Below are positions 14,895 to 25,404 of a stretch of 40,728 bases of DNA, piece by piece. Position 1 is the stretch's first letter. Each line of letters begins with the position of its first letter. The stretch spans positions 1-40,728 of the forward strand of contig LOES01000103.1 of assembly GCA_001515955.1 (NCBI GenBank), given 5' to 3'. Made by a program: the position numbers and the translations under genes. Under the pieces are notes generated by a model. It was not told where the DNA came from, did no database searches, and saw only the letters and a program-made list of their open reading frames with translations. Origin of the DNA: Clostridia bacterium BRH_c25 (GTDB lineage: Bacteria > Bacillota_A > Clostridia > Lutisporales > Lutisporaceae).

Positions 14895-15089
14895 CACTGC
14901 GTCTCCTTTATCCACTTATTACTCTCTTGCCCTTCCTCTAAGAATATATTTTATCACATTCTGTCTCCTTATTCTAATATAATGAAGTTTGAAAAGTTAA
15001 AATAATTGGAATATAATATAATGTAATGCAAATGAATATAAAGGAAACCCTATGTTTCTCCACAATTTCCGGTACATAAGGAGGATTAT

Positions 15090-18000
15090 ATGCACACAGA
15101 CAACTTAACCCGGCTTTATAACAATATATACGGCTGCCTGCTCTCAGCATACCGGACTCACGATGCTGAGGGTACATGGAATGCTGTAAAGGCATACATT
15201 GAAGACGCCAAATTCATGGATGACCTTAATAAGATGGTTGAAAACAGAGATTACAGCTGCAGCGCTGTACTGACACTGTGCCAGAGTCTTATGGATAAGC
15301 TTGCTCAGGATAATATACCTCCAAGCTGGCTTGAATATGTATACCAGTATTCCTTAAACAAGTCCTTCCCTCATACAGTTACAACAGAGCTTCTGAACAA
15401 GCTCGAAGACTCGAGTATTATATATCTTGCAATTCTGAGGGCAATTTCTGAATTTCAGAAGGAAAGCAGTGATAATACCTGGCAGAGCAAATATCCCATG
15501 CTGTTCCTCTCTCCCGATGAGGAGTCTGCACTGGAAAACCCAATCGAATATAAGAAATTCCTTAAAGCCTTCGATGATGAATACATATATGAAATGATGA
15601 AGCTTAACCAGGAGGTTTTGGGCTTTAATACCCTTGATCATATTTGCGGCGTGCATTCCCTTGCATTATATATAGGAAGAGAATTGAAAAAAACTGGAAT
15701 TCCCATCGATCTTGGCAGGGTATCCGGAGCTGCTGCAGGTCATGATATAGGAAAATACGGCTGCAAGTCAAAGGAACTAAAAAGAGTGCCGTATCTTCAC
15801 TATTATTATACCGATTTATGGTTCAAAAACCACGATATCACCTATATCGGCCACATAGCCACCAATCATTCCACCTGGGATCTGGAGCTTGAGAATCTTC
15901 CTCTTGAATCCCTGATACTCATTTACTCAGATTTCAGAATAAAACAGAGAACAACAGATAATATCAAAGAAATGTATATCTACTCCCTCCAGGATTCCTT
16001 CAGTGTTATTCTTGATAAGCTGGACAATGTAGACGCTGCAAAGGAAAAGAAGTACAAACGTGTGTATTCCAAGCTTTTAGATTTTGAGAATTATATGATA
16101 AACCTTGGCATAGAAGTTGATATCAGCAAGATAAGGAATGAATCCCCTAAGGACTATAAGCTTAAAAACTACCATTTTTCTTTGATAAGTGGAAATCAGA
16201 TAATTAAGAACATCAAGTATCTGGCAATAAATCATAATGTAAACCTCATGTATCAGATGAGAGATGAGGCTTCTCTTAATCTGATACTTGAATCAGCCAG
16301 GAGTGAAAGCAATTGGAAAAGGCTCCGGGAATACATAAGAATCCTGGATGAGTATTCCACATATCTCACACAGAAGCAAAAGCTTGTAACAATTAAGTTC
16401 CTTTATGATCAACTGGTTCATTGGGAGGATGATATCAGAAGACAGTGTGCTGAGCTTATGGGGCTTCTGATTGCCACTTTTGATGAAAACTACCGCAAGG
16501 CGGTTCCTGAGGATGTCATACTTGACACTCCATTCATGACCAGTCATGAGCTTTTAGATAAATACATACAGCTTCTTGCCAACCCTGATCACAAGATGGT
16601 ACCCCTTCATAGAAGCTACTTGGGTTACAGCATCAGCATCGTTATATCTTCATTGTTTTCCCATTGCAGCAAGAGTCATGTGGAAAGCTTCATGAGAGTT
16701 GTTGTCAAGTACTATAATGACGGCATTCGCAGGAGTAACGAGACCAAGCTGTACCTGCTTGAAGCAATAAGGTATATTCCGGTCTCCAATGACCATGTGA
16801 CGGACAGTAAAATATTTGAGTTTGTCAGAAGAATGTTGAAGGAAAAAAACAATACCCTCAGGATTTCCGCTCTGGATGTGACATATAGTGTTTTATCCCG
16901 GTTTGCGGACCCCATTGATGCATCAGGCGAAAAAAACGCTGTAGCCAGCTTTATCTTATGTATTAGACAATTTATATATGATACTCTTAAACGGTCCGGT
17001 GTCGCTTCAGAAAACTTTATTAAATACAAAACAGCCTGTCTCCTTGACATGGAGCCAATGGTACTGAATATGCTTTCCGACTTTTGTCAGAAGGATATAC
17101 ACAAGTTTTCCGAGATATCCTTAAGCAATCTTAAAACAGCAACAGAGTGGGTAATAAAAAGACTCCAGATTGACCTGCTGCTTGACAATTCCTTGAAAAA
17201 CCCCAAGTCTAACGGGTTTTACTCAGCCATGCATTTCTGCAACCTTCTAAAGGTCAGTGCCTCAGAGAATGTCCGCAATCGTGCCGGAGAAGCTCTGATA
17301 CAGATTGTACCCCATTTATCCATAGAACAGAGGAATGACATTGTTGTAGAAATGCTGAGGGCTCTTGAAATTGACGGATACCAATTTGCCGAGTATATTC
17401 CCAATTACCTGGGAAAATTGATACTTTCCCTTGAACCCGTCGAGCTGGATGAAGTCCTGGATGATTTCAAGGAAAAAATCAAGAGCTCCACCCCCCATTT
17501 GGATTCACTTATGCTAAAAACCATAAGCATAGCAATAGCAAATTATCCATCATATATTGAGGTGTCAAATGAAAAGAAGAGCTTCCATGAAAGCAGACTA
17601 GCCAGAATGCTGGGAATAATCATTAACGGACTTGCACATTACGATGGTAATGTAAAGCAGGCTGCCTTCAGCGTTTTAGGCAAGGAGATCTTTGGTTCGA
17701 CAACTCTCCCGCTTAATGAAAAGAGTCAGGTTTTTACCCATATCGCCAAGAAGCTGCTTACACTGCTTGAGGATGATATACAGGAAGGCCTGCTTTTTCT
17801 TACAAATTCTGCAGGCTTGAATAACATATACAGGTTTATTTCTGATTATACCTTCTTCTATAAAGACATTGACATAGCTGTTCCTGAGAAGGTCGCTTTC
17901 TTCCCCGGAGCTTTTGACCCCTTCTCCCTGGGACATAAAGAGATTGCAAAGGCCATTCGGGATATGGGCTTTGAAGTTTATCTTGCAGTGGATGAATTTT

Positions 18001-20018
18001 CCTGGTCAAAGAAAACTCTTCCAAATCTTATCCGTAAGAATATTATAAATATGTCTATAGCAGATGAATTCAATATATACATTTATCCTGAGGATTATCC
18101 CACAAATATAGCAAACCCCTTGGATTTAAAAGTATTGAAGGATAATTTTCCTGCATCGGAAGTATATATCGTTGCAGGAAGCGATGTCATGATTAATGCA
18201 TCTGCATATAAGAAGGAAAAAGGCAAAAACTCCATACAGACTTTTTCACATATAATATTTGAAAGAAAGAGCTTGAACAGTCAATATGAAAGTGATGACA
18301 ATTCCCTGGAGGAAACAGTGAGCAAAATAGGCGGGACGGTTATCCGCTTGTCTCTTCCTCCTCAATATGAAGATATCAGTTCTACTCAAATACGGAATAA
18401 CGTGGATGAAAATAGAGATATATCAATGCTTGTAGACCCTTTGGCACAAAGATTTATTTATAATAACGGCTTCTATCAGAGTGAACCGCAGTATAAATCA
18501 ATGATACAGACAAAATCCACCGAGATCGAAGTCGTGGAGGAAGCCGGCAGAGAGCTTCTCACAGAGCTGTCCGCAGCCTTGAGTATCAGCTATGAGATCT
18601 TTGCAGCCAAGTTTGGCAGTTTTCTCAAAAAGACATCAAATAGGCTGCTGCTGATCAGAGATGCTGAGCACGGGAAGCAAATCCTCGGCTTCTCAGCTTT
18701 TCACAGAGTAAACTTCAGCCTTCTATACGAGGAATTCAGAAACAGTACGGTAACAGAATATATTAGAAACAACTCAACCGGAAAAATAGTGAGTTTAGAT
18801 GGTATTTTCATTGCCAATAGTGCAGTCCTTGAAAATATGGCGCAGATTCTTCTTGCCGAGACATTGGCTTACTGCATATCCAGGGACTATGACTATGCAA
18901 TCTACAGCAATACTTTGAATGAACACAACTCATCCGGCCTTCTTGAGGTTCTGCATCTTATGGGCTTTAAGGACATACCCTGTCCGGAATTTGACAATAA
19001 AGTGCTTTCAGTAAATATCAGCACTCCCTGCACCTTGAATCTGGATATTGAAACCACTATCAAAGAGCCCTTTCGAAACAGCAATGCATTTCTGGATGTA
19101 GTATCCAGAACGAGAAAAAAGCTTCAAAGCACTCTGGCGGAAGTATATGACGGGAATCTTATATTGCCTTTTGACAGAGGGATTATGTACAACACCCTGA
19201 TTAAAAAAATATGTGAGGTGAATGATGTTCCCTCAAAACCTGTTACTCCCAGAAAGCTTGGCCCTGCGATGTGTGTTCCTTATGGCAACATGCTAAGCAG
19301 AAGCATTATTCCCAATACCGTTACCAAGGCACTGCACACTGAAAAGCTCTTCAGTCCTGATATGAGAAGCTACAAAATTGGTAACTTCCCCTACTATCTG
19401 GATCTGGATATACAGATAAAGATGCTGCATTCCTTTGGAAAGCCCATCATACTAGTAGACGATACCCTTCATCACGGCTATAGAATAAAGGTGCTGGATC
19501 CTCTGCTGAAGAAAGAAAACCTTAAGGTACGGAAGATAATTGTAGGGATACTGTCGGGCAGAGGAAAGGAACTTATGGAGATTCAGGGCCGGGATATTGA
19601 TTGTGCGTATTTCATACCCAGATTGAGAGAATGGTATAACGAAAACAACTTTTATCCTTTTATCGGTGGTGATGCTTTGTGGAGAGGTGTATATCCAAAA
19701 AGAAACCTGCTTCCTTCGATAAATATGATACTGCCTTATACCTCACCTTCATTTCTTAATGAGACGTCTAAAAAATCAATATTCAAGCTTTCACAAGTCG
19801 CAATGGAAAATGCGATAGATATACTGTCGACCCTGGAAGATGAGTTCCAGTATGTCAACGAAAGAAGTATGACCCTGTCATCCATGGGGCAGGTATTCAT
19901 AATACCCAGGAGTCCTGACCATGGAAAAAATATGGACTATGACCTGAGTCTAAGTCCATCCTTCTACTTGAAAAATGACCTGGAGCTTTTAAACAGACTC
20001 GAGAATATCATATGCTGA
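15090..20018 (+). CDS. Giant multidomain protein: HD hydrolase / helical region / NadD-like nucleotidyltransferase / PRTase-like
   Basis: A 1642-residue cytosolic protein with no signal peptide or clear membrane span. Domains seen: (1) HD phosphohydrolase, about 170-300, with His184/His189, the pair His218-Asp219 in AAGHDIGKYG, and distal Asp281 in YSDFR; (2) an all-helical, HEAT-like stretch, about 350-920; (3) a nucleotidyltransferase of NadD/cytidylyltransferase type, 935-1125, with FFPGAFDPFSLGH at 937-949 and ISSTQIR at 1096-1102, where the first His of the usual HxGH is Ser946; (4) about 1150-1320, possibly GNAT-like (weak); (5) a phosphoribosyltransferase-like domain with IILVDDTLHHGYR at 1453-1465, resembling a PRPP loop. 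AAGGAGG precedes the ATG. The LDH-like gene follows after 25 bp. The domain set suggests nucleotide, NAD-type cofactor or dinucleotide metabolism, but substrates are unknown. Confidence 0.85.
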   Translation: MHTDNLTRLYNNIYGCLLSAYRTHDAEGTWNAVKAYIEDAKFMDDLNKMVENRDYSCSAVLTLCQSLMDKLAQDNIPPSWLEYVYQYSLNKSFPHTVTTELLNKLEDSSIIYLAILRAISEFQKESSDNTWQSKYPMLFLSPDEESALENPIEYKKFLKAFDDEYIYEMMKLNQEVLGFNTLDHICGVHSLALYIGRELKKTGIPIDLGRVSGAAAGHDIGKYGCKSKELKRVPYLHYYYTDLWFKNHDITYIGHIATNHSTWDLELENLPLESLILIYSDFRIKQRTTDNIKEMYIYSLQDSFSVILDKLDNVDAAKEKKYKRVYSKLLDFENYMINLGIEVDISKIRNESPKDYKLKNYHFSLISGNQIIKNIKYLAINHNVNLMYQMRDEASLNLILESARSESNWKRLREYIRILDEYSTYLTQKQKLVTIKFLYDQLVHWEDDIRRQCAELMGLLIATFDENYRKAVPEDVILDTPFMTSHELLDKYIQLLANPDHKMVPLHRSYLGYSISIVISSLFSHCSKSHVESFMRVVVKYYNDGIRRSNETKLYLLEAIRYIPVSNDHVTDSKIFEFVRRMLKEKNNTLRISALDVTYSVLSRFADPIDASGEKNAVASFILCIRQFIYDTLKRSGVASENFIKYKTACLLDMEPMVLNMLSDFCQKDIHKFSEISLSNLKTATEWVIKRLQIDLLLDNSLKNPKSNGFYSAMHFCNLLKVSASENVRNRAGEALIQIVPHLSIEQRNDIVVEMLRALEIDGYQFAEYIPNYLGKLILSLEPVELDEVLDDFKEKIKSSTPHLDSLMLKTISIAIANYPSYIEVSNEKKSFHESRLARMLGIIINGLAHYDGNVKQAAFSVLGKEIFGSTTLPLNEKSQVFTHIAKKLLTLLEDDIQEGLLFLTNSAGLNNIYRFISDYTFFYKDIDIAVPEKVAFFPGAFDPFSLGHKEIAKAIRDMGFEVYLAVDEFSWSKKTLPNLIRKNIINMSIADEFNIYIYPEDYPTNIANPLDLKVLKDNFPASEVYIVAGSDVMINASAYKKEKGKNSIQTFSHIIFERKSLNSQYESDDNSLEETVSKIGGTVIRLSLPPQYEDISSTQIRNNVDENRDISMLVDPLAQRFIYNNGFYQSEPQYKSMIQTKSTEIEVVEEAGRELLTELSAALSISYEIFAAKFGSFLKKTSNRLLLIRDAEHGKQILGFSAFHRVNFSLLYEEFRNSTVTEYIRNNSTGKIVSLDGIFIANSAVLENMAQILLAETLAYCISRDYDYAIYSNTLNEHNSSGLLEVLHLMGFKDIPCPEFDNKVLSVNISTPCTLNLDIETTIKEPFRNSNAFLDVVSRTRKKLQSTLAEVYDGNLILPFDRGIMYNTLIKKICEVNDVPSKPVTPRKLGPAMCVPYGNMLSRSIIPNTVTKALHTEKLFSPDMRSYKIGNFPYYLDLDIQIKMLHSFGKPIILVDDTLHHGYRIKVLDPLLKKENLKVRKIIVGILSGRGKELMEIQGRDIDCAYFIPRLREWYNENNFYPFIGGDALWRGVYPKRNLLPSINMILPYTSPSFLNETSKKSIFKLSQVAMENAIDILSTLEDEFQYVNERSMTLSSMGQVFIIPRSPDHGKNMDYDLSLSPSFYLKNDLELLNRLENIIC

Positions 20019-20043: not shown

Positions 20044-21294
20044 ATGTTTTATTACAAGCACTGCAACAGGACCTTGGTATCCTTGAAAAGCTATGAGCAG
20101 ATTAATGAAATTTCCGAGGCAGCTGCAGCCTCCGACACCGGACGCATATTCGCACTGACAAGCGGCTCTCCGAAAGCTGCACGAAGAAGCTTTTGTGTAT
20201 CCCAGTCCGACCTGCTTTTTACTTCAGAAGAGAATTTGAGAATGCTGCTTCTCCCCAGATTAGCCGAAGACAATCTGCCTGCATGGCTATTACAGGCTGT
20301 GCATAACAATAGAGTCACTATGCTAAACACTGACTATCCCAACTGGGAGGATGTCCTGCTCTTTGAAGCACCTGAAAAGTGGCGAATCAATGTTGTAGGC
20401 CTTGGGGATGTCGGAGGCACTCTTGTCTCCGGCCTAAGACTCTTGGGAGGAGACTGCATATCGGATATAGGAATATATGACATAGATCCAAATAAGGTTA
20501 AACGCTGGGAGTTCGAAGCCAACCAAATCATGGACCCTTCCGGTATACTTGACCATCCTCCGGTCCTGCCCATATCAGAAGACCAGCTTTTTGACTGTGA
20601 CATGTTCATATTCTGTGTTACTGTGGGTGTGCCTCCTATAAGCGAAAATCCGGGAGACGTCAGAATTGCGCAATACGAAGGCAATTTAAGGATAATTAAA
20701 CAATATGCCTTATCTGCCAGAGCTAACTGCTATAAAGGAATATTTGCAGTAGTATCCGACCCGGTGGATTTATTATGCAAGGCCGCCTTTGACTTCAGCA
20801 ATACCGACAGCAGCGGCAGGCTTGATTTTAAAGGTCTTGCAGCTGAACAGACAAGAGGTTACGGGCTCGGTGTCATGCATGCACGGGCAGCTTACTATGC
20901 CGGACTAAGCAATTCGACGGCACATTATATAAAAGAAGGCAGAGCTTTCGGTCCTCATGGTGAAGGACTGATAATTGCAGACAGCATCGTTAAATACAAT
21001 GACCTTCTTTCCCGAGGCCTTACAGAAAAAGCAAAAACGGCCAACCTTGAAGTCCGTAATCTGGGCTTCAAGCCTTATGTAGCACCGGCTCTTTCATCCG
21101 GCTGCTTGTCAATACTTGCTACCATCAGAGGACAGTGGCATTATAGCGCCACCTTCCTGGGCGGAGTATATCTGGGAGCAAGAAACAGACTGCTTCCCTC
21201 AGGTATCGAGCTAGAGAGGCTGCCAATTCCTGATGAGCTTTTCCACAGATTGGAAAACACTTATGAAAGCCTGAGAGAGATTAAAAGGCCCTGA
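20044..21294 (+). CDS. Lactate/malate-dehydrogenase-fold protein with altered active site
   Basis: A 416-residue protein. Residues 1-110 have no counterpart in LDH/MDH. From about 112 a Rossmann domain begins with NVVGLGDVGG (GLGDVG at 119-124) and acidic IYDID after beta-2, so NAD is the likely cofactor. The substrate loop NPGDVR keeps its Arg, Arg281 aligns with the LDH substrate Arg, and His305 in GPHGE aligns with the catalytic His. However, the relay Asp of LDH (three residues before that Arg) is Met278, and the usual NPVD block is SDPVD. True lactate or malate dehydrogenase activity is therefore doubtful. It is cotranscribed with the giant gene (25-bp gap, GGGGG site) and ends in a shared terminator. 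Confidence 0.8.
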   Translation: MFYYKHCNRTLVSLKSYEQINEISEAAAASDTGRIFALTSGSPKAARRSFCVSQSDLLFTSEENLRMLLLPRLAEDNLPAWLLQAVHNNRVTMLNTDYPNWEDVLLFEAPEKWRINVVGLGDVGGTLVSGLRLLGGDCISDIGIYDIDPNKVKRWEFEANQIMDPSGILDHPPVLPISEDQLFDCDMFIFCVTVGVPPISENPGDVRIAQYEGNLRIIKQYALSARANCYKGIFAVVSDPVDLLCKAAFDFSNTDSSGRLDFKGLAAEQTRGYGLGVMHARAAYYAGLSNSTAHYIKEGRAFGPHGEGLIIADSIVKYNDLLSRGLTEKAKTANLEVRNLGFKPYVAPALSSGCLSILATIRGQWHYSATFLGGVYLGARNRLLPSGIELERLPIPDELFHRLENTYESLREIKRP

Positions 21295-21320
21295 ACTTCA
21301 AGTGTTCAGGGCCCTTTATT
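21287..21320 (+). terminator. Bidirectional intrinsic terminator
   Basis: A perfect 10-bp stem GGCCCTGAAC/GTTCAGGGCC with a 7-base loop. It overlaps the stop codon of the LDH-like gene, with T-rich flanks on both strands (CTTTATTT on plus, TTTTAAT on minus). It ends the cassette and also the convergent formate dehydrogenase operon. Confidence 0.85.
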
Positions 21321-23248
21321 TAAAACTCCGGAGGCAGTGTCAGCATTTCTTCATAGTTGAACACCGGCCCGTCTACGCACATGTACTTGTTCCCCACCTT
21401 GCAGTGCCCGCACTTTCCTATGCCGCACCTCATATGGGTTTCCAGGGATGTAAGTATGTCAGTTCCCTTCATTCCAAGCTTTATAAGGTCTTTTGCCACT
21501 GCTTTTATTCTCCTTGGGGAAGCACATATAATAGCTGTAGTATTCTCCCAATCCAATCCCAGATCAGGCAGCAGATCATTGATATAGCCTACATAAGCAT
21601 CAACCTTGTCAGTAGGCTTGCTAAGCGCATAGAGAGCATTGACCCCGTCAACCTCATTCCACTTTTTAATGTCCTCCTTGTAAACAAGTCCTTCATAGGT
21701 TGTAGCACTGGCTATTACTACAAGCTTCCCAAAATCCTTTATATTCTCAATTATCCTTACAATCATGGTCCGGACCGGTGCCAGCCCTACACCGCTGCCT
21801 ACAATCAGTATATCCCTTCCCTTAAGCTCCTCATAGGGGAAGCCTTTTCCGAAAGGCCCCCTGAGACCTACCTTGTCGCCGACCTTAAGCTCATGCATTG
21901 CAGATGTAACACGGCCTGCCTTCTTTACACAGAAATCAAAGTAATCCTTCTGGGATGGTCCAAAGGGTATGGAAATCGCTATTTCCCCTACTCCAAATAT
22001 GGTAATCTCAAAAAATTGTCCTGTAAATTTATAGTTTTCATGCAGCCCCTTATCCTCATATTGGATAATAAACCTCTTTATGTCCCTTGTTTCCTGAATT
22101 ATCTCCTTTATCACGGCTACTTGGGGCCTATAGACATTTTCACAGCTATTATGCTCCGAATTATGCGCCTGTATCTCAAATCTTGCAGCTGCTGCATTAC
22201 CCTGCTTCATCGCTTCGATATCATGCTTGTACTCCTGCTTAAGCTTTGATGCAACTTCAATAATATCAATAAACGCAGGACATACATTTATACATCTCCC
22301 ACAGCCTGTGCACCCTTTGAAGCCGAATCTTTCCTCTATATACTTCAGCTTGTCGTAAATCCTGTACCTTACTCTTGAAACCTCGTTTCTGGGGTTATGT
22401 CCTCCGGCATTTCTGGTAAAGGAATCACTCTGGCAGGAATCCCAGTATCTGACCCTGCATTTCTCCCCATAGCAGCCTTCTTCCTCTACTATGTTGAAGC
22501 AGGTGCAGGTGGGGCATACGCTTGTACAGCCGGTACAGCCTATGCACTGCTTTGATATTTCCTTCCAGATTTCATTATTGTAGGTTTCTTCCATTACCTT
22601 TGCTATATTAGTTAAATTCACCCTGCTTACAAACTTCTCCAGAACAGCATTTTGAAGAGCTGCCTTCAGCTCATCTGCTTCGACCTCAATATTTCCAAAA
22701 AAATCAGCTGCAAGGTCAATAAGCTCCTTTCCCTTTTCTGAGCCTGCTTCAACCAAATATTCATCCTCTATTGGAGTCAGCATCAGATCATAGCCTTTTT
22801 GTGCAAAGGGCCCAACTCCGGTAGAGGAGCAATAGCAATTGTACCCCGGTTCGGTACAGTTTACTACTACTATATAGGTCTTTTCCCTTCTTCCGGCATA
22901 ATTGTGATCCCTGAATTCTTCTGCATAAAACCTGTCCAGGTAGGCTATGCCATATGCGTCACAAGCTCTGACTCCAAATAGTATTCTCGGTTTAAGCTTA
23001 CCGGCATCAAATTCTGTAATTTGTATATCTCCATCATTTTTCTGCCAATTATACAGGTTTTCCTTCTGCTCAAACAAATACTCCTTCACAGGCATTGCAG
23101 TATTAAGATAGTCCATAGTAAAACTCTTCTCCTGAAAGGGCATGAGCATTACATCTTCATTCTGCTGCCTCGTGGGCGCATACACATCAAAGCTGAGTGA
23201 CCATGCTTCAAGTAATTTGGATACATCTTTTTTGTTTAATATCAGCAA
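21320..23248 (-). CDS. Fused iron-sulfur/flavin oxidoreductase subunit (AsrA-like + AsrB-like)
   Basis: A 642-residue electron-transfer subunit. Residues 1 to about 345 resemble anaerobic sulfite reductase subunit A/sulfhydrogenase beta: one 4Fe-4S motif CIGCTGCTSVCPTC and a second CTGCGRCINVCP. Residues about 370-600 resemble subunit B/gamma: an FAD-binding barrel (GPFGKGFP), an NAD(P)-binding fold (ILIVGSGVGLAPVR) and a C-terminal 2Fe-2S set CGIGKCGHC. These halves are usually two proteins. The start is TTG 23248, directly abutting the fdhF TAG, with GGGGTGAAG as ribosome site, so the two are coupled. It probably passes electrons between the formate site and NAD(P); the direction and the choice of NAD or NADP are inference. 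Confidence 0.85.
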   Translation of the reverse strand: MLILNKKDVSKLLEAWSLSFDVYAPTRQQNEDVMLMPFQEKSFTMDYLNTAMPVKEYLFEQKENLYNWQKNDGDIQITEFDAGKLKPRILFGVRACDAYGIAYLDRFYAEEFRDHNYAGRREKTYIVVVNCTEPGYNCYCSSTGVGPFAQKGYDLMLTPIEDEYLVEAGSEKGKELIDLAADFFGNIEVEADELKAALQNAVLEKFVSRVNLTNIAKVMEETYNNEIWKEISKQCIGCTGCTSVCPTCTCFNIVEEEGCYGEKCRVRYWDSCQSDSFTRNAGGHNPRNEVSRVRYRIYDKLKYIEERFGFKGCTGCGRCINVCPAFIDIIEVASKLKQEYKHDIEAMKQGNAAAARFEIQAHNSEHNSCENVYRPQVAVIKEIIQETRDIKRFIIQYEDKGLHENYKFTGQFFEITIFGVGEIAISIPFGPSQKDYFDFCVKKAGRVTSAMHELKVGDKVGLRGPFGKGFPYEELKGRDILIVGSGVGLAPVRTMIVRIIENIKDFGKLVVIASATTYEGLVYKEDIKKWNEVDGVNALYALSKPTDKVDAYVGYINDLLPDLGLDWENTTAIICASPRRIKAVAKDLIKLGMKGTDILTSLETHMRCGIGKCGHCKVGNKYMCVDGPVFNYEEMLTLPPEF

Positions 23249-25285
23249 CTACTTCACCCCCTCTAATCTAACGGCGCAAACCTTGAACTCAGGTATCTGC
23301 GATACCGGATCAAAGCTTCTGTTGGTCAGCCTGTTGACCGGAGCTTCCCCAAAATGGAAGGGCATGAAAACAACTCCCTTTGTGATTTTATCTGTGATAA
23401 TTGCAACTGTTTCAATTTCTCCTCTTCTGGAAGTCACCCTTACTTTATTATTGTTGCTTATTCCCAGCTTTTCAGCATCTGCAGGATGTATCTCTATAAA
23501 ACCGTGAGGATATTCTCTATCCAATGCCCAGGATCTCCTGGTCATAGTCCCTGTATGATAGTGATGCTGGATCCGTCCCGTTGTCATTACAAGGGGATAC
23601 TCGTCACTGACTGATTCACCCGGATCTCTGTATTCGTTAACAGTGAATTTCCCCAAGCCTCTAGAAAACTTATCCTTATGCAGAAATTTTGTGCCCGGGT
23701 GCAAAAGATCAGGGCATGGCCACTGCAAACCAACTTTATCTATTCTATTGTAACTGATTCCTCCATAGCTTGGAGTCAGGCTCCGGATTTCTTCCATTAT
23801 ATCACCGGGTTCTTTATAATCAGCCGGATAGCCAAAAGCTTCAAAAAGGGCACAGAGTATTTTCCAGTCAGGCATACTGTTTCCTACAGGTTCAATGGCC
23901 TTTCTCACTCTTTGCACTCTACGCTCTGTATTTGTAAAGGTGCCGTCCTTTTCCAGGAAACTGGTTCCCGGCAATACTATATTTGCAAGCTCTGAGGTCT
24001 CAGTCATGAAAATATCCTGCACCACCAGGAATTCCAGATTCTTCAGAGCTTTCTCCACATGGCTCATATCAGGGTCGGAAAGCATGGGGTTTTCACCCAT
24101 TATAAACAAAGCCTTTATCTTACCGTGAGCTGCCTCCTCCATCATTTGGGATACAGTCAAGCCGTTGTCACAGGCTGTATCCTTGCCCCATGCGGCTTTG
24201 AACTTTTCTCTGATACTGTCATTCAGTACAGACTGGTACCCTGGGAATACATTGGGCAGGGCACCCATATCACAGGCACCCTGTACATTGTTCTGCCCCC
24301 TCAGCGGGTTTACTCCCGAGGCTTCCTTTCCGATCTGCCCTGTTATCAAGGCAAGGTTTGCCAGTGCAGCAACATTTGCCGAGCCGGTCACATGCTGTGT
24401 GATTCCCATAGCATAGACAATGGAGGCATTTCCAGCTCCTGCAAACATTCCTGCAAATTCCCTCACCGTATCGGCATCAACCCCGGTTATCAGAGATACA
24501 GCTTCCGGAGTATATTTATTGACAGACTCTTTGAATTCTTCATAGCCTTCCGTCCTGCTTCCAATGAAGTCCTCATTTGCCAGACCTTCAGATACAATTA
24601 CATTAAGCATCCCGTTAATAAAAGCAAGATTGGTTCCCGGGTTCAACGGCGCATATGCTGCAGCATGCTCCACCAGAGGTATGCGCCTGGGATCTGCAAT
24701 AATAAGCCTTGCACTGTTTTTCAATACAGCCTCTCTTATCCTCATTCCAATGAGAGGGTGCTGTTCAGTTGTGTTTGATCCTATAATAAATATAACATCT
24801 GCCTTTGAAAGCTCATCTATCGAGTTGGTCATTGCACCACTACCGAATGCAGCAGCTAAACTAGCCACTGTAGGACTATGTCACAAACGGGCACAATGAT
24901 CTATATTGCTTGTTCTCAATACCGATCTCGCAAACTTTACCATCAGGTAGTTTTCTTCATTGGTACATCTTGCCGAGGACAATACCCCGATAGCTTCAGG
25001 TCCATATTCAAATATTATCCTGTTCAGTTCTTCTGCTGTACTCTCTATTGCCTCCTCCCAGGCCATCTCCTTGAAGCTTCCATCCCTCTGTCTTTTTAAA
25101 GGCTGCTTTAACCTATCGGGATGGTTGACAAAAGTATATCCCTGCCAGCCTTTGACGCATAGCTTGCCCTGGCTTACAGGATGGCCTGCTTCCGGAGTTA
25201 CTCCTATAACCTCGTCATCCCGGACATTTACATAGAAGCTGCAGCCACAGCCGCAATAACCACAAGTAGTCAGTACTTTTTTCAT
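23249..25285 (-). CDS. fdhF: Formate dehydrogenase catalytic subunit FdhF, selenocysteine-containing
   Basis: Molybdopterin (Mo/W) enzyme interconverting formate and CO2. The frame begins at ATG 25285 (GGGGGAAG upstream) with CGYCGCGC, the 4Fe-4S site with Cys8, Cys11 and Cys15. An in-frame TGA at 24883-24881 is codon 135, within NIDHCARL-TGA-HSPTVASLAA. This is where Escherichia coli FdhF has selenocysteine 140 (CARV-U-HGPSVAG). Reading TGA as Sec gives a continuous 678-residue protein close to the family length of about 700. A SECIS-like hairpin follows at 24870-24850. Downstream blocks IIGSNTTEQHPLIGMRI and LRGQNNVQGACDMG bind the pterin cofactor. A naive annotation would split it into two genes. 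sel genes must lie elsewhere. Confidence 0.93.
24850..24870 (-). promoter_or_regulatory. Bacterial SECIS element of fdhF
   Basis: In the mRNA an 8-bp stem (with G-U pairs) closes a 5-nt loop AGUUU, spanning nucleotides +11 to +31 after the UGA. Size, distance and the GU in the apical loop fit the SelB-binding minihelix of bacterial formate dehydrogenase mRNAs. Confidence 0.75.
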
Positions 25286-25404
25286 TCCTTGCTTCCCCCT
25301 TACTCTGCAATACAAATATTTGTCTTTTTAATTATTAAACTATGTGTTTTGTACTAAAGCTTCTTCATTTGCATGATTTGGGACAAATTCTCCCTTTATC
25401 ATGA

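Follow-up and report, generated by a model that had tools for sequence, protein, structure and literature searches.

A multidomain HD-HEAT-NMNAT-PRTase-like protein and its redox-type operon partners form a candidate dinucleotide pathway in clostridia

One of the closest described systems to the locus analysed here is the mycoplasma NadD-YqeK fusion, for which the accessible part of the source reports proofreading by HD and NadD domains and activity of the fused YqeK domain of JCVI-Syn3 on NaCD and NaUD (PMC9426524). A clostridial protein, here called BIG, resembles that fusion as described there in having an HD hydrolase and a NadD-type transferase in one chain (PMC9426524). However, its HD domain is not YqeK by profile, and it has HEAT, GNAT-like and PRTase-like domains and redox-type partner genes in addition. 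The first-pass annotation knew of no described pathway for this architecture, and we found no paper on it in a search of the literature on the architecture and its parts, a search that left most subscription papers outside its reach.

The window, that is, the whole stretch of DNA that we analysed, comprises 40,728 nucleotides from Clostridia bacterium BRH_c25. In its ORF listing, BIG starts with ATG and encodes 1642 aa. The features of BIG and of the gene that follows it (G2) are:

14989..15017, + strand: candidate sigma-A promoter TTGAAA-N17-TATAAT, 5' of BIG (the same element is seen by eye in L001 and L002)
15090..20018, + strand: BIG, an HD-HEAT-NMNAT-GNAT-like-PRTase-like protein (ORF; a family of proteins of 1,600-1,699 aa)
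15537..16124, + strand: HD phosphohydrolase domain, residues 150-345, ligands H184, H218-D219, H237, H260 and D281 (PF01966, ligands, model)
16245..17876, + strand: HEAT/ARM superhelix, about residues 386-929
17877..18497, + strand: NadD/NMNAT-type adenylyltransferase domain, residues 930-1136
17904..17936, + strand: PGAFDPFSLGH, residues 939-949, counterpart of NadD GGTFDPxHxGH (alignments)
17991..18011, + strand: DEFSWSK, a family signature (residues 968-974) that aligns with NadD PPHK and is unchanged in 57 of 64 copies
18375..18395, + strand: ISSTQIR motif, residues 1096-1102 (alignments)
18498..19079, + strand: GNAT-like domain without evident acetyl-CoA loop, residues 1137-1330 (strand and helix order in the model)
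19080..20015, + strand: probable type I PRTase-like domain, residues 1331-1642 (PF00156, PF24390 and PDB matches)
19449..19484, + strand: PRPP-loop-like ILVDDTLHHGYR, residues 1454-1465 (alignments)
20044..21294, + strand: G2, an LDH/MDH-superfamily dehydrogenase-like protein of 416 aa (profile, alignments)

Our database search for relatives of BIG scored 7991 candidates, 5301 of them with E ≤ 0.001. Among the matches listed, 119 of 120 were 1,600-1,699 aa long, with identities of 52 to 84%; relatives carry the automatic names 'cytidyltransferase', 'nicotinate-nucleotide adenylyltransferase' and 'HD superfamily phosphodiesterase'. When 120 full-length proteins were aligned, 270 positions were at least 98% conserved, including H184, H218, D219, H237, H260 and D281 of the HD domain and P939, G940, D943, H949, S1097, S1098, R1102, D1457 and G1463 further along the chain. 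Because they are kept to this degree across the alignment, the motif residues are not there by chance. The first-pass annotation had placed His218-Asp219, Asp281, PGAFDP at 939-944, Ser946 and His949, ISSTQIR at 1096-1102 and VDDTLHHG at 1456-1463 correctly, and the conservation that it had named as a check at His218/Asp219, His949 and the first aspartate of VDDT is borne out in the 120 proteins, as is that of the second (D1458) in 62 of 63 ORFs. Its HD and NadD-type assignments were likewise confirmed, with constrained catalytic residues. For motif counts we used a wider set of 64 ORFs, 59 of which have the HD region. The motif, neighbour and operon counts leave out 15 locus identifiers. Eleven of these duplicate counted places, two (L025, L026) are short matches of NadD type, and two (L032, L033) mark further BIG genes, each with G2 downstream. 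Of two sequence sets, both with the window included, A1 adds 45 of 59 listed loci and A2 adds 43 of 58.

All six HD ligands were present in 58 of the 59 HD-bearing copies, the exception (L058) having Tyr at H260. PF01966 matched 29 of 44 BIG sequences at E ≤ 1 (best 1.4e-5) and the window protein with 15.3 bits (E 0.026; cut-off 22 bits), and structure prediction gave a helical model of the region with a pLDDT of 89.7. By sequence, the domain is not recognisably YqeK: the TIGR00488 profile matched neither the window protein at E ≤ 1 nor the 44 sequences at E ≤ 0.01, and hhalign gave 37% in a comparison with only three distinct sequences on the YqeK side. Among the best named relatives were the DVU_1551-family NTP transferase (NF045665; 22 of 44 sequences at E ≤ 0.01, best 1.8e-6) and TIGR00295 (19 of 44, best 7.2e-6). 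The window protein lies far below both cut-offs (13.5 versus 315 bits and 14.5 versus 172.35, respectively), and the resemblance is confined to the HD domain, the remaining chain being unlike. The long helical middle, which the first-pass annotation had taken for a scaffold, is a HEAT/ARM solenoid that matches HEAT/ARM-like solenoids in the PDB fold lists, in keeping with that idea.

Fold searching revealed an NMNAT Rossmann-like fold across the whole nucleotidyltransferase domain, with NadD/NMNAT as the closest solved relatives. Among the matches listed, the PDB fold lists contained the NMNAT domain, other nucleotidyltransferases and HEAT/ARM-like solenoids, together with 1wk4_A (row 49), the title of which gives no function; HD or PRTase rows were absent from these matches, the lists being filled by the NMNAT domain. 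The active-site motifs of NadD are (H/T)xGH and ISSTxxR, and these are matched in BIG by the conserved H949, S1097, S1098 and R1102. NadD GGTFDPxHxGH becomes PGxFDPF(S/T)LxH in BIG, and P939, G940, D943, P944 and H949 are all present in 59 of 64 ORFs. Ser946 had been read as a hint of changed chemistry, but it does not signal a lost activity: this position is Ser in 50, Thr in 11 and Asn in 3 of the 64 ORFs. Ser or Thr stands there in 61 of 64, and the three with Asn are second copies with a dead NMNAT domain. When 59 BIG sequences were compared with 12 canonical NadD sequences from the genomes of relatives, the ATP-side motifs (FDP...H, GxD and ISSTxIR) were common to both, whereas the PPHK, SYT, WK and KYLLP segments of NadD gave way to conserved WSK, NIAN, Y and DISxLIDP. 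SYT, WK and KYLLP form the NaMN (acceptor) side of NadD, and the acceptor specificity of the BIG domain appears to have changed relative to NadD. Tyr1040, invariant in the 61 copies that have a residue at this position, aligns to a conserved Trp of NadD. In BIG the NadD-type part is embedded in a chain of 1642 aa and scores below the cut-offs of the NadD profiles TIGR00482 and NF000840 in the window (31.5 versus 112.45 bits with one and 36.3 versus 150 bits with the other); four BIG copies passed the NadD search at E 1e-15, with a top score of 60.8 bits.

The order of elements in the predicted model of residues 1137-1330 fits GNAT, and 20 of 50 rows of the viral fold list for BIG were named acetyl- or acyltransferases, although the matched ranges are not displayed. 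GNAT proteins have an acetyl-CoA loop, Q/RxxGxG/A; visual inspection of 21 aligned BIG sequences showed none ahead of the helix that follows strand 4. No GNAT family was among the Pfam families listed for BIG, a PDB profile search with the domain gave no relevant match, and the region matched no profile in L039, L041 or L043.

Type I phosphoribosyltransferases (PF00156, PF24390) have in common with BIG the PRPP loop and the local strand-loop-helix pattern, whereas the PPi loop and hood are unrecognised in BIG, which has a long C-terminal extension. D1457 occurs in 63 of 63 ORFs with letters there; the single exception at D1458 is a Glu in L028, which reads LSDEVINRGRT at the loop position. PF00156 matched 20 of 46 BIG sequences at E ≤ 1 (best 2.6e-4) and PF24390 (PRTase-CE) matched one of 46 (6.1e-5). 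Five of six weak PDB matches have the PRTase fold, comparison with Hpt gave an hhalign probability of 9%, and the secondary structure of the model is compatible with a PRTase over residues 1331-1642. The earlier assignment of this region as a PRTase therefore stands as likely, favoured by the PRPP loop, weak profile matches and predicted secondary structure and tempered by a window score of 11.5 bits against a PF00156 gathering score of 26.3. Stand-alone relatives of the domain (97 proteins, E 1.5e-38 or better) are probably fragments, because many sit on short contigs.

The first-pass annotation had proposed a one-chain system; instead, BIG most often opens an operon of three genes. Of 64 BIG loci, 58 extend at least 2.6 kb downstream, and in 47 of these G2 follows on the same strand at a median gap of 11 bases, within 500 bases in all but one (L004, 5.4 kb off). 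A third gene, G3, follows G2 in 43 of the 58, with a median overlap of 4. Nine of the 11 loci without G2 are second copies, and the remaining two (L048, L055) come from genomes without detected G2 or G3. Neighbouring ORFs came from a simple greedy script, which can miss overlapping genes; at L051 it missed the G3 of genome G417, which was found otherwise. The annotated neighbours of BIG in the window are mostly housekeeping genes, and no gene neighbour in a survey of the loci names a substrate. No riboswitch reached Rfam gathering scores near BIG in the window, L006, L013, L014 or L018.

The Rossmann half of G2 matches the LDH/MDH profile (E 1e-13). In LDH numbering we take R207, R281 and H305 to be Arg109, Arg171 and His195, and D239 and M278 to stand at Asn140 and Asp168. 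The first three are kept, whereas, relative to L-lactate and malate dehydrogenases, all 22 aligned G2 sequences have Asp for Asn140 and Met for Asp168. These dehydrogenases have a catalytic His195-Asp168 pair, of which G2 has only the His (H305), M278 being invariant; because Asp168 is absent, G2 may not be a normal dehydrogenase. Its C-terminal half is hardly matched by these enzymes, and it has an extra N-terminal part, with 42 of 52 copies at least 380 aa long. G3 contains an FMN_red domain (PF03358, E 2.1e-22) preceded by an N-terminal half that FMN_red flavoproteins lack. C207, C210, C215 and C224 (L001 numbering) are invariant in 20 sequences, and G3 is possibly an FMN_red flavoprotein of the iron-sulfur type, with a putative cluster. 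A PDB search with the G3 profile gave no match at E ≤ 0.01. An operon of C. difficile, CD3638-CD3637, which the accessible part of its source places under sigma-E and describes as including an FMN reductase (PMC3789822), was a lead for G2-G3 that we dropped; a literature search on its locus tags brought nothing further.

The window itself has no match to G3, whereas its kin L001, L002 and L016 do have the gene. The coding sequence of G2 ends, at 21280-21320, in codons resembling the last ones of the L001 G3, and a similar terminator-like repeat follows the window G2 and the L001 G3. This arrangement is consistent with loss of G3 through a deletion of ~1 kb, in the organism or in the assembly.

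To assess distribution, we counted BIG in genome samples. Of 148 genomes from the order of Maledivibacter, 90 carry it (E 1e-30), as do 19 of 50 genomes of Atribacterota, the order and phylum samples including genomes first met as BIG carriers (G001, G002, G004, G005; G007). Six of 299 genomes of a Bacillota sample matched, four with a long BIG (including the chosen centre, G001); the other two (G043, G302) are short, NMNAT-only matches and were excluded from the count. Within the order, G2 was found in 87 of the 90 BIG-positive genomes (E 1e-25) and G3 in 83 (E 1e-40), and neither in any of the 58 BIG-negative genomes. Fisher values for this co-occurrence overstate independence because the genomes are related. 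Two genomes (G412, G434) have BIG while G2 and G3 were not found.

Of the order's 148 genomes, 142 have a canonical NadD scoring above cut-off, as do 89 of the 90 with BIG, and YqeK was present in 16 of 16 BIG-positive genomes tested. In several genomes of the order NadD is matched by open frames some 390-440 aa long; one of that length (L089 of G374) matches YqeK as well, which suggests that NadD-YqeK fusions are not limited to mycoplasmas. PncB (TIGR01513) was not found in 37 of 90 BIG-positive versus 8 of 58 BIG-negative genomes, counts that are uncorrected for kinship and for genome completeness; among these PncB-less genomes NadC was over cut-off in 25 of 37 and 2 of 8, respectively. With NadC in most PncB-less carriers and PncB in 53 of 90, BIG is not a clean replacement for nicotinate or quinolinate PRTase. 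A link to sporulation was also rejected (SpoIVA in 42 of 90 BIG-positive versus 25 of 58 BIG-negative genomes, Fisher p 0.74), as was a viral origin, as 13 viral loci align to the nucleotidyltransferase domain alone, most of them to its first 70 residues. The plasmid set yielded one BIG record, NZ_CP154629.1, which is a 2.6-Mb replicon of Acetoanaerobium noterae (40% identity, no listed gene beneath). L017, labelled as Lutibacter sp. B2 (Bacteroidota), has the operon and clusters with clostridia in both of the trees described below, making the label doubtful.

BIG has split naturally in a few genomes. Operon copies of 1,075-1,201 aa in G330, G447, G365 and G399 (L043, L041, L045 and L047) lack the HD domain and keep intact NMNAT and PRTase motifs; G3 follows where the contig reaches (L041, L043, L045). 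In the first three genomes a copy elsewhere (L044, L042 and L046, of which L042 is truncated where its contig stops) retains every HD ligand, its NMNAT motif having been lost, and G399 also has an HD piece. G341 and G435, in which a full operon BIG is accompanied by a solo copy (L039, L049) with intact HD domain and broken NMNAT motif, look like an earlier stage of this split. The HD-less copies form one clade (100/99) in a tree of the NMNAT and PRTase parts, which omits eight rows (L007, L009-L012, L015, L016 and L042), and the five HD-keeping, NMNAT-dead solo copies form one clade (97/89) in an HD tree of 59 rows. The four of these five that are included in the former tree have branch lengths between 1.4 and 5.8, compared with a median of 0.24, and do not group as one clade. 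Thus, where BIG divided, the HD part separated and the NMNAT and PRTase parts stayed with G2, a pattern drawn from few events in one group with long branches. This division of labour is not general, because the solo second copy is complete in five genomes (G316, G340, G403, G381 and G392; L058, L061, L065, L067 and L069), L058 but for its Tyr at H260. G398 has two complete BIG operons. A gene for an APH-fold kinase adjoins 5 of 10 solo second copies (L049, L061, L065, L067, L069).

Tentatively, and at somewhat less than an even chance, we favour BIG as the multi-enzyme scaffold of a dinucleotide pathway. What follows on substrates, on a PRTase reaction and on the sequence of reactions is our inference. 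The PRTase-like domain would join a base to PRPP, and the neighbouring NMNAT-type domain would adenylylate that mononucleotide with ATP to give an NAD-like dinucleotide; a PRTase reaction followed by an NMNAT reaction leads from base to dinucleotide. Incorrect or excess dinucleotide would be hydrolysed by the HD domain, a task that YqeK performs on the products of NadD, and the product would be used or reduced by G2, with G3 as a redox helper. The hydrolase role of the HD domain and the dehydrogenase and flavoprotein as users are plausible. Because a normal nadD is kept, BIG is not the NaAD maker for growth. In favour of the scaffold we count the NMNAT fold with its retained ATP-side motifs beside replaced NadD segments, the linkage to G2 and G3, the natural split, the separate nadD and yqeK and the proofreading reported for the mycoplasma fusion (PMC9426524); against it stand the weak PRTase homology, an HD domain unlike YqeK, a G2 without Asp168, the lack of a riboswitch or a substrate-naming neighbour, the G3-less window, the genomes with BIG and no G2 or G3 (G412, G434), the complete solo copies and the small number of split events. 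A narrower proposal is unlikely: BIG would build an undescribed NAD-like dinucleotide, starting from a free base, by a PRTase step and then an NMNAT-type step on the one chain, policed by the HD domain, as a private redox cofactor dedicated to the G2 and G3 proteins of the operon; if true, about 60% of one clostridial order and part of Atribacterota would have kept it.

The main competitor keeps to NAD itself. As a conditional quality-control or salvage machine, BIG would use its NMNAT-type domain on NaMN or NMN and its HD domain to destroy miscoded or damaged dinucleotides, with the PRTase-like domain as PRPP sensor or base recycler. Such a role, possible though on the unlikely side, would fit the solved NadD/NMNAT relatives, Tyr1040 at the place of the conserved NadD Trp (61 of 61), the action of the JCVI-Syn3 YqeK domain on NaCD and NaUD given in the accessible part of that report (PMC9426524) and the more frequent lack of PncB in BIG-positive genomes (37 of 90 versus 8 of 58, uncorrected for kinship). 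It leaves G2 and G3 unexplained, however, and is at odds with the unconserved NadD segments outside the ATP motifs, with housekeeping nadD and, where tested, yqeK coexisting with BIG, and with PncB in 53 of 90 carriers and NadC in 25 of the remaining 37.

PRTase folds are often regulatory, as in PyrR, PurR and ComF, and BIG could be a nucleotide-sensing scaffold in which the NMNAT-like and PRTase-like domains bind without turnover and the HEAT solenoid couples them to the HD domain and a G2/G3 redox switch. The large HEAT/ARM scaffold and a GNAT-like domain without cofactor loop would suit this role, but the nearly invariant catalytic-type residues of the HD and NMNAT domains and the whole motif sets kept in the split copies make it distinctly improbable. 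Least probable by far is a stress, defence or conflict system with the PRTase-like domain as an effector on nucleotides, which would draw on a PRTase-CE match in one relative and a weak PADLOC match to ShosT at the PRPP loop (residues 1449-1489, E 0.0019). That match covers only profile positions 170-209 of 237, unlike ShosTA no partner match is found in G2 or G3, and BIG, G2 and the L001 G3 have no other PADLOC match at E ≤ 1. None of the papers listed for ShosT was of use. The occurrence of BIG in 90 of the order's 148 genomes, the mostly housekeeping neighbours, viral matches restricted to the nucleotidyltransferase domain and a single plasmid-set record on a 2.6-Mb replicon also argue against it. 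If the dinucleotide pathway is right, common anaerobes carry a nucleotide-cofactor pathway that we have not found described, hidden under automatic gene names. The co-occurrence of the three genes and the natural separation of the HD part from the NMNAT and PRTase parts make the function of BIG directly testable.

Downstream of G2 in the window, a 315-aa ORF at 21302-22249 (+) with no Pfam match lies nearly entirely antisense to a 642-aa iron-sulfur/flavin ORF at 21320-23248 (-). ORFs of 539 and 144 aa at 23249-25315 (-) form one frame of a formate-dehydrogenase-like molybdopterin protein. A 66-nt fold around the TGA that breaks this frame at 24883-24881 (-) was no better than shuffles (z -0.43); the TGA is likely a selenocysteine codon, and a similar split occurs in L001.
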